Shown piece after piece: positions 21,375-26,368 of a stretch of DNA of 55,234 nucleotides. The position numbers and the translations under genes are program-made. Source of the DNA: Lentisphaerae bacterium GWF2_49_21 (GTDB lineage: Bacteria; Verrucomicrobiota; Lentisphaeria; Victivallales; GWF2-50-93); assembly GCA_001804805.1 (NCBI GenBank), contig MHBH01000051.1, positions 1 through 55,234 of the forward strand, read 5' to 3'. A model generated the notes under the pieces. It had not been told where the DNA came from and did not search any database. It saw nothing but the letters and a program-made list of their open reading frames with translations. Within the stretch, counting starts at the first letter, position 1. Each line of letters opens with the position of its first letter.

Positions 21375-22450
21375 ATAACGGAATTGGTGTACATGCTAAA
21401 TCCCCCGCCCTGAAGGTGTTCAGGCAGTTCAGCAGCCTCAAAATGATGTGAAAAAGTGAAGTTTTTTGGATTTTATCGGAGGCAGGATCCCGAGCGATAG
21501 GAATCCTCGGGATTTCACTTGGTCCAACTTGAGCTTTTGACACCATGAGCCTAACCCGGGCAGGGGCAAGTGAATGACAGATAAGATGATATGGCGGAAA
21601 TGACGGCTAATATAAGCCTTAGGATGAAAATAGATGGGGGTGAAAATGAATTTAAGGAAAACCCTCCCTCGCTCGCTGCCGCTCTCTCGGTCGGGGGATC
21701 TCCCTTCCGCCATGCGGCTCCAGGGAGGAAAGGCAGCTGCGGAAGAAGAGGCGGCAGCCTTCGCGGGAAAGTGCGTTTCGTTTCACCGCATAATCGCGGG
21801 GATTATGCGACGCGATGGCCGTCTTTGTGGGATGTCATCATCTCTGCTTTCGCACATCTGCCGCCATCCCAGTCGCCGTCCACTTTCCCGGTCAGTTCAC
21901 ATAAGCGTTATGTGATGCCGCCTTTAGAACCGTGCCCCTCCTCAATCCTCCCCAGGGAGGAACTCTCCCCTTGTGGATTCTCCCCTCTCAGTTGAGAGGG
22001 GATGAGATGCGCTTCGGCCACAGAGCCGAACGCTCGGAACGCCACGCCAAATCAGTCCAGCCGCTCTGACGAGCTCCCCCTGTCCTGTTTTGTCCTGGCA
22101 TAACCTCGTGTCGGGGCCTTCGCTCCAGCTCGCTCCTGTCGCGTCGATGAAATGCCATCTTCCTTGACAGTCGCTCGCGGGAGGGGAAAAGAGAAGAACG
22201 GTGGCACAGTTGCCCCCGAACCCCTACAATCGGGCGTTCCGCCGCCCGAACCCACGGGCAGGGATTATGGCCATCCCTGCACCCTGTAAGTAATGCCGTG
22301 GTCGTTGCAAGTTAAGTATTTAATATGCAATTAGTAATGAATAAATATAAAATATAGATGAGTGTGGGATAAGCATAAAAACTAGTGATAAATTGAAAAT
22401 AAGCCTTTTTGGGATATGTTCTTTCAGACAAGAAAGAGGACAGGAATCCC
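21375..22450. other. Gene-poor stretch between RHS module and RAYT
   Basis: About 1.1 kb without a convincing gene. Open frames at 21591-21995 and on the other strand have low-complexity Ser/Pro/Arg-rich translations, no ribosome site and no recognisable fold. Composition swings from GC-rich with CTC/CGG runs (21660-22270) to AT-rich (22310-22400), suggesting remnant or imported DNA. Confidence 0.6.
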
Positions 22451-23230
22451 ATGAAAAGAGGCAGGATAAGAATCAACGAGGGGCGTTGTTATCACGTGAC
22501 GCACCGGTGTCAGGAGCGCAGGTTTCTTTTCCGGTTCGAGATTGACAGGAAGAGCTACGTCGACAGGCTGATGGAGGCGAAAAAGCTGTATGTGGTTGAT
22601 GTGCTCGACTACATGATAACTTCCAACCATGTCCATCTGCTTTTCTATGCTGACAGAGGCGAAGCTGTATCAGATGCGATGCATTTCATCCAAGGGGCGT
22701 CCGCGCGAGACTACAACCGCAGGAAGGAGAGGGAAGGGGCCTTCTGGTGCGGGCGTTTCCGGCCGACGCTGATTCAGGAAGGCGTGCATCTGGGCCGCTG
22801 CATCATCTACATTGCCATGAACATGGTCAGGGCGGGCCAGGTGGATCATCCCGGAGGATGGAAGAGCTGCGGATATCACGAGCTGGCTGGATTTCGCGAA
22901 CGGGGTCTCATCGTCAACCGTGAAAGGCTGCTTTCATGTCTTGGACACATTGGTGATGCCGGGGGATTTGAGGAATGGTACCAGAAGACCATAGAGGAGA
23001 AGTTAAGAGACGGCGAATTTTCCAGACAGTCAATCTGGACGGAATCTTCTGCAATTGGCGATCTTGAATGGATAGGATCCCTTGCAAGGCGATATGGGAT
23101 AGGTAAGAAGGAGATACTTGAAATGAATAAAGGCTCCTCCAAGGTGATTGGTGTCCGGGAGGAACGCGCCAGCTATGGTCTGAAACTTTCAGATAGAACA
23201 AGGGCAGATTTTGCATTTGGAAAGATATGA
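22451..23230 (+). CDS. REP-associated tyrosine transposase (RAYT, Y1/IS200-like)
   Basis: HUH-type single-strand nuclease thought to process and spread REP hairpins. The HUH pair is in SNHVHLLFY (His about 60 and 62) and the single catalytic Tyr is in ASARDYNRRK (about 88). The N-terminus GRCYHVTHRCQERRFLF and the segment FWCGRFRPTLIQ are typical for the family. A C-terminal part (LARRYGIGKKEILEMN) looks like a helical DNA-binding domain. The ATG at 22451 has AGGA upstream, and an earlier frame start at 22409 lacks conserved sequence. RAYTs usually occur once per genome next to the REPs they mobilise, and this window is rich in GTAG- and GGAG-headed hairpins. It shares the fab-cluster interruption with the RHS gene. 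Confidence 0.88.
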   Translation: MKRGRIRINEGRCYHVTHRCQERRFLFRFEIDRKSYVDRLMEAKKLYVVDVLDYMITSNHVHLLFYADRGEAVSDAMHFIQGASARDYNRRKEREGAFWCGRFRPTLIQEGVHLGRCIIYIAMNMVRAGQVDHPGGWKSCGYHELAGFRERGLIVNRERLLSCLGHIGDAGGFEEWYQKTIEEKLRDGEFSRQSIWTESSAIGDLEWIGSLARRYGIGKKEILEMNKGSSKVIGVREERASYGLKLSDRTRADFAFGKI

Positions 23231-23269: not shown

Positions 23270-24181
23270 TCAGACGAAATTCTTTACGCTGTCCATGCTG
23301 TTGATATTATAGGTTGCGACATTCGCATTGATCCTCTTGGCAAGTCCTGTCAGGACATTGCCCGGCCCGAACTCGATTACGGTATCGGCGCCTGTGGAAA
23401 GGATCGCCTTTACGCATTCCTCCCATTTCACGCTTCCTGCCACCTGGCTTACGAGATTGCTGCGGATTTCACAGACGCTCTTCACGCAGGTCCCGACATA
23501 ATTCTGGGCGACCGGTATCATCGGATCCTTCATCGGAATTCCTTCAAGGACGGGCTTGAGAGCCTCTCCTGCGTCCTTCATCATCCTTGAATGATATGCT
23601 CCAGCGACCTTGAGAGGAATGACTTTCTTGAAACCTTTTTCCTTGAAAACAGAAACCGCCTTTGTGACTTTTTCTTCAGAACCGCTTACAACAACCTGTC
23701 CGGGACAATTCAAATTGGCAACATCAATGTCGCATTCCTGGCAGATCTGCCTGATGACTGAGGGATCTCCTCCGAGGATTGTCGCCATTCCTCCTTTTGC
23801 CTTCTTGCAGCACTCGTCCATGAGTTCGGCGCGTTTTGCCACAAGACGGAGTCCGTCGGCGAAGCTGAAAGCTCCAGCAGAATAAAGGGCTGCGAATTCA
23901 CCGAGGCTCAATCCAGCCGATGCCAGAGCCTTTATCTCCGGCTTCTTTTCTGAGAAGGCCGCAAGACAGGCTGAACTCATAGTATATATGGAAGGCTGGC
24001 AGTATCTGCTTTCGGTAAGCTTGGCTTCAGGCCCGTTGAAGCATAGATCGGAAACGGACCATCCGAGAATTGAATCGGCCTCCTTGAAAACCGCTGCCGC
24101 CGCAGGACTCTGTTCAAAAAGATCTTTTCCCATTCCGACCGCCTGCGCGCCCTGTCCAGAAAAAACAAATACTGGTTTCAT
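23270..24181 (-). CDS. fabD: Malonyl-CoA:ACP transacylase
   Basis: Loads malonate onto acyl carrier protein for fatty-acid synthesis. The start FVFSGQGAQAVGMGKDL is diagnostic. The nucleophile Ser is in GLSLGEFAAL, with Leu where many bacteria have His (GHSLGE), a known variant. The catalytic His is in GAYHSRMM and the later block is IEFGPGNVL. Length of 303 is normal. On this strand it should lead fabG-acpP-fabF, but those genes lie 5.3 kb further on behind an RHS/RAYT region of opposite orientation. Confidence 0.95.
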   Translation of the reverse strand: MKPVFVFSGQGAQAVGMGKDLFEQSPAAAAVFKEADSILGWSVSDLCFNGPEAKLTESRYCQPSIYTMSSACLAAFSEKKPEIKALASAGLSLGEFAALYSAGAFSFADGLRLVAKRAELMDECCKKAKGGMATILGGDPSVIRQICQECDIDVANLNCPGQVVVSGSEEKVTKAVSVFKEKGFKKVIPLKVAGAYHSRMMKDAGEALKPVLEGIPMKDPMIPVAQNYVGTCVKSVCEIRSNLVSQVAGSVKWEECVKAILSTGADTVIEFGPGNVLTGLAKRINANVATYNINSMDSVKNFV

Positions 24182-24208: not shown

Positions 24209-24270
24209 GTAAGGCAGGCTTTCAGCCTGTTATCTTATCGAAAAAACAACGGGCTAAAAGCCCGCCCTAC
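24209..24270. repeat. REPIN, GTAG-type, upstream of fabD
   Basis: Two facing hairpins: GTAAGGCAGGCT-ttc-AGCCTGT and GGGCT-aaa-AGCCC ending GCCCTAC. The outer ends GTA(A)GG and CCCTAC face each other as in REPINs. It sits in the leader or promoter region of fabD. Confidence 0.75.
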
Positions 24271-24325: not shown

Positions 24326-24347
24326 CAGCTCTTGCGAGCTTAACTAC
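24326..24347 (-). repeat. GTAGT-type REP hairpin
   Basis: Minus strand GTAGTTAAGCTC-gcaa-GAGCT. The same plan recurs at 45268-45289, with related paired forms at 33802-33873 and 48277-48341. Confidence 0.65.
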
Positions 24348-24421
24348 GAACATATTGCAAATTGAGAAATTTAGAAAATAGCTTGTAGTAATTTTATTCT
24401 TTGGAAAAAGAATAAAATCTA

Positions 24422-24450
24422 TTGACATCCAGAGGCTTTTTTGATAGAAT
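24422..24450 (+). promoter_or_regulatory. Sigma70-type promoter of candidate small RNA
   Basis: TTGACA (24422-24427), 17-base spacer, TAGAAT (24445-24450). It is the best-scoring promoter by eye in the window and points away from fabD toward a structured non-coding stretch. Confidence 0.75.
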
Positions 24451-24456
24451 TACAGT

Positions 24457-24609
24457 TGGAGACAGGGATAAGGCTTAGAGAATGCAGAGACTGAATCCGG
24501 CCAGTCCCCGACCTCCGGAGTCATCCACATGGTTCGAATGTCGGAATTCAGTCTCTGCTTCATATAGCGCCGGTTGGTTTTTACAGTTTACCATCCGGCG
24601 TTTTCTTTT
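24457..24609 (+). ncRNA. Candidate structured small RNA, about 150 nt
   Basis: The promoter at 24422-24450 would start a transcript near 24457. Its centre is closed by a perfect 13-base stem, GCAGAGACTGAAT (24484-24496) with ATTCAGTCTCTGC (24546-24558). Inside are smaller pairings around CTCCGGAG and ACAT/ATGT. It ends in a terminator at 24568-24609. A short frame from an ATG at 24482 has no ribosome site and no recognisable sequence. The word GGCCAGTCCCC is shared with 6S RNA, but the molecule is too short and lacks the 6S outline, so no known RNA class is assigned. Confidence 0.6.
24568..24609 (+). terminator. Terminator of candidate small RNA
   Basis: CGCCGG and CCGGCG enclose a 21-base loop and are followed by TTTTCTTTT. 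The T-run exists only on the plus strand. The stem overlaps the last codons of the convergent esterase gene. Confidence 0.7.
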
Positions 24610-25394
24610 ATTGATCCGATAATGCTCAGGAGCTTGTTTTCCACACATGGGATGAATTGTCTCTTTGAAGGATCTCTTTTGTCTGTCCTCGGGATCCACA
24701 TTCCATGGAACTCATCGTTCCCGTCAAACAGGAACAATTCTAATTCTACTCCTAGTTTGCGGCATTTGCAGATCAAATCCTCGGAATGGCGTGTGTGGAC
24801 AAGTCTGTCATTCGAGCTATGCAGGCAGATAGTCCGTGGAGATGATTTCCTGATGAAATTCATTGGCGCTGCATTGGACCAGTCCTTCACGCCGATCTTC
24901 CTCCTGCCGAAGAACCTGTAAATTAGAGGATCAGGATTCTTCTTCGATGCGAAGTGTGACTTTACATCGGTCGGACCTGCGATGGAAATTATGCATGAAA
25001 CCTTTTCCGGAGGAAGGCGCAATCCCGTCATTAACGCAAGATGCCCGCCGGCAGAAGCTCCGGCAACGACTATGGGACTGTCTATGATCCGTTTATCCAG
25101 CATTGGAATCTTTTCTATCAGGAATTCCGCCGCCCTGAGGCAGTCGTCCCCGCAGGCCGGCCAGGGGGCGTCGTCAAGAAGACGGTAATTTATCATAAAG
25201 GCTGCGAATCCTTTCAGCGCGAAAAGTTTTCCAAGGGGATAAAGGCCGTATTTGTCCATTGCGTTCCATCCTCCTCCATGGATCACAAGCGCGACGGGGA
25301 TCTGCGAATTTCGCGGATTGTCAGGAAGAAGAAGATCTCCCGTCCCCCTCCATCCGTTTTCAGGTGCGTAGGAAATGTCTTTTATCAGTCTCAT
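24588..25394 (-). CDS. Alpha/beta hydrolase, BD-FAE/hormone-sensitive-lipase-like esterase
   Basis: Serine esterase expected to cleave ester groups from sugars or plant-derived glycosides. The oxyanion motif HGGGW comes early, the nucleophile elbow is GASAGGH, and the acid and base of the triad are probably Asp in SSNDRLVH and His in EFHGMW. Length of 268 fits the family. No signal peptide, so cytoplasmic. It is the last gene of a minus-strand row after a URO-D-family gene, whose stop region overlaps its first possible start (25409). The ATG at 25394 has GGGAG upstream and is preferred. Confidence 0.82.
   Translation of the reverse strand: MRLIKDISYAPENGWRGTGDLLLPDNPRNSQIPVALVIHGGGWNAMDKYGLYPLGKLFALKGFAAFMINYRLLDDAPWPACGDDCLRAAEFLIEKIPMLDKRIIDSPIVVAGASAGGHLALMTGLRLPPEKVSCIISIAGPTDVKSHFASKKNPDPLIYRFFGRRKIGVKDWSNAAPMNFIRKSSPRTICLHSSNDRLVHTRHSEDLICKCRKLGVELELFLFDGNDEFHGMWIPRTDKRDPSKRQFIPCVENKLLSIIGSIKENAGW
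25304..25314. repeat. GCGAANTTCGC palindrome, copy 3
   Basis: Central T. It lies within the esterase gene, in codons for Pro-Arg-Asn-Ser-Gln, a different reading from the other coding copies. Confidence 0.7.
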
Positions 25395-25399
25395 GATTT

Positions 25400-26368
25400 T
25401 TACTCCCATGCTGATTGAATCATTGCAAGATAATTTTCCGGAACAACGGAATCTATGATAGAATGGCTTGAACAGACGACATATGAATTGTCGTCAGACA
25501 GGCTATCAATGTGCTTCTTAGTATCCACCATGATCTCCTCTTTTGTGCCGAAGGAAAGGAGATTTATGTCTATGTTTCCGACTAATGCGAACTCAGGATA
25601 GTCGCGGTGGATCTGATATATGTTATTTACGTTTGGCTGCATAGGATGTATGGCGTCAATTTCCCATTTCCTGAAATATGGAAGAACATCAGCCATCGGT
25701 CCGCAGCAATGGCACATGACTGGCCGCCCCGTCGCCTTTGCCGCAGTTATGATCTTTTCGTGTCTTTCTGCCCATAGATCTCCAAGACGGTCAGGACCGA
25801 TGAATCCAGTAACATCGTCGCCTATATACAGGAAATGAAATGGAAGGTCTTTAATTTTGTTTATGGCGTTCAACGTATATTCCGTGTAAAAATCAAGAAG
25901 ACTTTCCACAAGTTCAGGCTGTTCGAAGATCATTATCATGAAAGATTCAATTGATATAGGACCCGCAGCGACATATGAGGCAGTAAGCGGTCCGCTTAGA
26001 CATGGGCAAACGCCGATTTTCGTGCCTTTAACGATCTTCAGATACGATTCAAGTTTGGATTTTACATCGGGATAGGCTACTGACTTCTTGATCCTATCAA
26101 AATCTTCATTGCTGCAGATGGAAGCTTTTTCAAGATGGAACTGGATTGGACATGGGATTGCATCCTGTCCGATCCTATTCACAACCTCTACGGAACTTTC
26201 AGGGGAAAGCTGCCACAATCCCTGATCAGTCTGAGTTCCAAGAATGTGGGATATGCCCCTTCCATTGATTGTGATTTCAAAATTCGGGACACGGTCCGCC
26301 TCCCTGTGTGCGAATGCCGCAAGAAGCCGGTTTATATCTGGAATCTTTACACTGTCATTCGCTGGCAT
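25400..26368 (-). CDS. Uroporphyrinogen-decarboxylase-family protein (methyltransferase-like)
   Basis: TIM-barrel protein of the URO-D superfamily, 322 residues. It resembles the MtaA/CmuA methyltransferase branch and sugar-locus relatives rather than HemE. Visible blocks are the start RLLAAFAHREADRVPNFE, IGVCPCLSGPLTASYVA, YIGDDVTGFIGPDRLGDLW and VMCHCCGPMADVLPYF, the last with a His-Cys-Cys that could bind zinc as in corrinoid-linked methyltransferases. HemE's N-terminal arginine motif is absent. Its place between an unrecognised 812-residue protein and an esterase, behind an IclR gene, suggests a catabolic role. The ATG at 26368 follows AAAGGG. Confidence 0.78.
   Translation of the reverse strand: MPANDSVKIPDINRLLAAFAHREADRVPNFEITINGRGISHILGTQTDQGLWQLSPESSVEVVNRIGQDAIPCPIQFHLEKASICSNEDFDRIKKSVAYPDVKSKLESYLKIVKGTKIGVCPCLSGPLTASYVAAGPISIESFMIMIFEQPELVESLLDFYTEYTLNAINKIKDLPFHFLYIGDDVTGFIGPDRLGDLWAERHEKIITAAKATGRPVMCHCCGPMADVLPYFRKWEIDAIHPMQPNVNNIYQIHRDYPEFALVGNIDINLLSFGTKEEIMVDTKKHIDSLSDDNSYVVCSSHSIIDSVVPENYLAMIQSAWE

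Follow-up and report, generated by a model that had tools for sequence, protein, structure and literature searches.

Promoter, terminator and predicted fold

The segment at positions 24422–24609, on the plus strand of the window (the whole 55,234-nt stretch of DNA that was analysed), lies between a fabD gene (23270–24181, minus strand; Acyl_transf_1, PF00698, E = 1.8e-36), which is read divergently from it, and an esterase gene (24588–25409, minus strand), which is read towards it. There is good support for an independent gene here, encoding a small non-coding RNA of approximately 150 nt (about 152 nt); this small RNA gene is almost certainly real, has not been described before and is restricted to its genus. 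The reading of this locus as an undescribed structured RNA unit, first put forward in a preliminary description, is the one best supported here, its own promoter and intrinsic terminator being conserved as a unit.

The TTGACA-17-TAGAAT promoter of that description is found at 24422–24427 (-35 hexamer) and 24445–24450 (-10 hexamer), the latter extended by a TGN motif, here TGA, ahead of it. In all four genomes examined of the genus (this genome, G001, G002 and G003) the spacer is 17 nt long; the -35 hexamer reads TTGACA in this genome and in G002 and TTGACT in G001 and G003, and the -10 hexamer reads TAGAAT in three genomes and TATAAT in G002. The pattern TTGACW-N17-TAKAAT occurs once in the window, versus 0.06 occurrences expected. 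From the position of the -10 hexamer, transcription is predicted to start at approximately 24457 and to produce a 5′ leader spanning 24457–24479.

At the other end is an intrinsic terminator (24568–24609), a G+C-rich hairpin (stem 24568–24577/24591–24600; fold z = -5.8) followed by TTTTCTTTT, with the T-tract at 24601–24609 on the plus strand, as had been described. With a loop of more than 8 nt, it escaped a simple terminator scan. The overlap with the end of the convergent esterase gene also holds, the 3′ arm of the terminator encoding the last codons of the esterase.

Between leader and terminator, the 5′ strand of the main stem (24480–24501, GAA-U-GCAGAGACTGAAT-CCGGC) is followed by an apical loop (24502–24539) with the C-rich element CCCGACCTCC (24507–24516) and GTCAT, by the 3′ strand of the stem with UUC (24540–24561), and by an A/U-rich linker between the two stems (24562–24567; UUCAUAU, UUCACAU or UUUACAU, kept in all homologs). 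The perfect 13-bp stem of the preliminary description is present in this genome, where GCAGAGACTGAAT at 24484–24496 pairs with ATTCAGTCTCTGC at 24546–24558; elsewhere it is imperfect, with one mismatch each in the lower 10 bp in G001 and G003 and a second one above in G003. The predicted fold of the 150-nt RNA, in which the terminator follows an apically looped hairpin of approximately 80 nt, has an energy of -60 kcal/mol (z = -4.9) and is more stable than 200 of 200 shuffled sequences. According to the same kind of prediction, the degree to which the loop element would be unpaired differs from genome to genome.

The alignment of the four genomes is consistent with this structure: 95% of its cells are paired, versus 29–48% for versions slid along the alignment, and the two strands of the main stem likewise form 95% standard pairs. 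The compensatory changes in the 13-bp stem for which the preliminary description had proposed a covariance search were not found there. The main stem is nearly invariant and its changes are one-sided, of the G-U/G-C/A-U type (A-U to G-U and G-C to G-U in G002); just two pairs, both in the terminator, are altered on both sides, and the covariation score of the four-genome alignment is reached by 110 of 500 shuffles. The proposed structure is therefore plausible and thermodynamically stable, but covariation does little to prove it.

Conservation and modularity in the genus

The preliminary description had made its reading depend on conservation in relatives, and the whole unit is present in four of the four genomes examined of the genus, with constraint tracking its parts. 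Among 60 related genomes searched with the DNA sequence, it was identified in G001 (84% identity, E = 1e-52) and G003 (81%, E = 5e-45). In both, fabD is divergent from the RNA gene as it is here; the flank away from fabD varies, with the esterase gene in this genome versus GH127 genes in G001 and G003, and homology stops at the T-tract. A covariance model (R1), built from the three orthologs and one second copy, retrieved the G002 sequence, which was not in the model (48.5 bits, E = 7e-10). In G002 the locus is flanked by nadA and a ROK gene. Its promoter, TTGACA-17-TATAAT, is a perfect one and is still kept, although it falls outside the R1 model. G002 thus retains promoter, stem and terminator, while its loop has been replaced and the C-rich element is gone.

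This genome holds one full copy; a weak match on its contig C45 is a terminator-like hairpin. Beyond the genus, 137 genomes of the order and 388 of the phylum yielded no convincing relative, the weak matches being, where inspected, G+C-rich terminator-like hairpins. A search with the core pattern and two mismatches returned mostly chance matches. The pattern scan of genome contigs gave 25 stretches, of which the three from Lentisphaerae are the known loci (G001 twice, G003); seven of the other 22 (L051, L057, L058, L060, L065, L067 and L070) were inspected and contain no matching stem and terminator.

Sequence constraint was compared among the three genomes in which the gene is linked to fabD (this genome, G001 and G003). 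Of 120 fourfold sites in fabD, 30 (25%) are identical in all three, whereas the identity of the RNA core is approximately 94%. Identical positions are concentrated in the -10 hexamer (6/6, 100%), the T-tract (9/9), the 5′ strand of the stem (25 of the 26 positions of 24480–24505, 96%; 22 of 26 when all four genomes are counted) and the C-rich part of the loop (21/23, 91%), versus 7/17 (41%) in the promoter spacer and 4/12 (33%) in the remainder of the loop. One position varies in the 43-nt block 24484–24526; at the fourfold rate, at least 42 identical positions of 43 would arise with P ~1.7e-24, a rough value, given that the block was selected in hindsight. As read from the sequences, conservation is distributed as in a transcription unit under purifying selection, with the -35 and -10 hexamers, the 5′ strand of the stem, the C-rich loop and the terminator kept.

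A second copy of the RNA is found in G001 (L019:1496-1613; contig C115, minus strand), beside a gene for a GntR-type regulator. It retains TCCCGACCTCCRGMGTCATSC, the linker and the terminator, the retained segments being TCCCGACCTCC-G-GTCAT-C, the linker GCTTCATAT and the terminator itself; its stem differs (TGATCAAGA/TCTTGATCA). No promoter resembling the main copy's was recognised, and this copy may therefore be a relic. Taken together, the G001 second copy, with the loop kept and a new stem, and G002, with the stem kept and a new loop, indicate that loop and stem change separately. Such behaviour would be expected of a loop that recognises a partner and a stem that serves as scaffold; a protein that binds the stem remains the alternative.

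Gene kind and possible mode of action

By the criteria used for bacterial intergenic sRNAs, the locus has its own promoter and terminator, conserved as a unit, and no conserved frame. On balance, the best overall explanation is an sRNA gene whose product acts as an Hfq-independent, probably trans-acting regulator through its UCCCGACCUCC loop, which we regard as somewhat probable. Transcription would proceed from the gene's own primary-sigma promoter, away from fabD, to its own intrinsic terminator, and the folded RNA would consist of a long stem capped by a large apical loop, the A/U linker and the terminator hairpin. The stem would serve as a stable scaffold and the loop, if accessible in the cell, would display the C-rich UCCCGACCUCC. 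This element could then pair with G-rich sites, probably the Shine-Dalgarno regions of mRNAs, in the absence of Hfq or CsrA.

Several features of the genome are relevant to this proposal. The loop element is complementary to the Shine-Dalgarno-like GGAGG, and GGAG lies upstream of 57 of 257 starts in this genome versus two in the control. No Hfq (PF17209) match was found in 13 genomes, those of the genus included, while control genomes do match; CsrA likewise went undetected in the four members of the genus, whose assemblies are 77–95% complete, but is present in a control genome of the order. Target searches gave negative results. In this genome, exact complements of CCCGACCTCC show no enrichment (8, versus 16 for the reversed control), and none of the matches is a convincing translation start common to several genomes; sRNA seeds can be as short as 7 nt, so the exact-match test has low power. 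At 257 translation starts, representing less than one-tenth of the genome, the duplex energy of the loop shows no excess over shuffled loops (7 of 20 shuffles were stronger), and the loop pairs less well with these starts than with mid-gene segments. Since the target tests were negative, the antisense mechanism draws on the architecture and on known C-rich sRNAs (PMC3091779, PMC9410917), and we place it slightly short of an even chance.

Similar sRNAs are known from other bacteria. The csRNAs of streptococci, which belong to the CiaRH regulon, carry an anti-Shine-Dalgarno element between two stem-loops, and 53 of 61 have an anti-start-codon CAU (PMC3091779). The RNA described here resembles them in having its own promoter and terminator and an anti-Shine-Dalgarno element, which in the csRNAs is unpaired (PMC3091779). 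It differs from them in that the element lies in an apical loop and the CAU is 3′ of CCUCC, the wrong side for a start codon; no Rfam relation between the csRNAs and the RNA at 24422–24609 was found. IsrR of Staphylococcus has three C-rich regions and acts without Hfq (PMC9410917). Both IsrR (PMC9410917) and FsrA of Bacillus have C-rich single-stranded loop regions and stem-loops followed by a terminator, and the present RNA resembles them in its C-rich loop and its terminator; IsrR, however, has three such regions in another architecture and comes from a different phylum.

The separate change of loop and stem raises the further, rather doubtful possibility of a modular sRNA family in a lineage lacking Hfq and CsrA. 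In such a family, promoter, stem and terminator would form a chassis, with the recognition loop exchanged, as in G002, or placed on another stem, as in the G001 second copy, giving RNAs that differ in specificity. A single-copy RNA under strong constraint, in genomes in which neither Hfq nor CsrA was found, offers a defined starting point for sRNA use in such bacteria.

Alternatively, the RNA could bind a protein, either as a 6S- or Ms1-like binder of RNA polymerase or as the ligand of an unknown RNA-binding protein, with the bulged stem as the recognition element and the loop secondary. This we consider unlikely, though not negligible. G002 preserves the main stem with its inner helix UCCGGC/GUCGGA but not the loop; 6S went undetected in 100 genomes of the order (0 matches to the Rfam 6S model), so the 6S role could be vacant. 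The missing matches may reflect a divergent 6S elsewhere. The G001 second copy points the other way, as it alters the stem and keeps the loop. 6S RNA, a ligand of the RNA polymerase holoenzyme and template for pRNA, is widespread in bacteria, whereas this RNA was not detected beyond one genus. The likeness to 6S consists of a small stable RNA gene and a GGCCAGTCCCC-like word noted in the preliminary description, which had itself doubted the connection. That doubt was right: RF00013 has no match in the whole genome, nor at the locus with a permissive threshold. The size and outline are also unlike 6S, a long rod of ~160–200 nt with a central open bubble; the present RNA is shorter, its ~80-nt hairpin ending in an apical loop and lacking a central bubble, and this loop is not conserved in G002. 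What is new is this RNA itself; an sRNA gene with its own promoter and terminator is a known kind, and 6S it is not.

More generally, a search against Rfam 15, as the preliminary description had suggested, gave no relevant match at gathering or permissive thresholds. Acido-Lenti-1 (RF01687), a candidate structured RNA from Acidobacteria and Lentisphaerae (PMC2864571), is an Rfam family and was therefore covered by this search, in which it had no match. Little literature on the non-coding RNA of Lentisphaerota was found, and the RNA at 24422–24609 is not described therein.

A gene for a small peptide is very improbable. A frame of 46 codons (MQRLNPASPRPPESS...) starts with the ATG at 24482, and the reading frame QRLNPAS(S/P)RPPESS is uninterrupted in this genome as well as in G001 and G003. 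However, G001 has ACG in place of this start codon, G003 has lost 1 nt and is thereby out of frame, the predicted products differ in length and C-terminus, and the frame passes through the terminator. The changes in G002 are non-synonymous, yet two of them preserve base pairs (G-U), and no protein family match was obtained. The lack of a convincing reading frame in the preliminary description therefore stands, no frame being conserved across the homologs. A translation start inside the loop (GGAG-N7-ATG) was also considered and rejected; its frame has 12 codons in this genome, 2 in G001 and 15 in G003.

Even less credible is the absence of a gene, with promoter, palindrome and terminator brought together by chance or as parts of a mobile DNA repeat: looser promoter patterns are indeed frequent by chance (1.6 expected in the 1.3-kb neighbourhood), but there is a single full copy in this genome, and conservation across four genomes, confined to functional parts, refutes this reading. 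Least tenable is a CsrA sponge acting through GGA motifs in the leader (GGAGACAGGGA), which are present in three genomes; it is largely refuted because CsrA was not found in the four genomes, and G002 lacks the GGA motifs.

The fabD-proximal intergenic region

Between fabD and the RNA gene, at 24213–24266, are two neighbouring short hairpins, CAGGCTTTCAGCCTG and CGGGCTAAAAGCCCG, which are terminator-like on the minus strand. They are kept in G003 and fall inside the stretch upstream of fabD that is conserved in G001. A gene for a Y1_Tnp (IS200-like) transposase, possibly a REP-associated transposase, adjoins fabD at 22409–23230, near these hairpins. A further stretch of ~86 bp (24328–24413), which separates the fabD leader from the RNA promoter, is absent in G001 and G003 and includes an A+T palindrome, TTTTATTCTTT-GGAA-AAAGAATAAAA.
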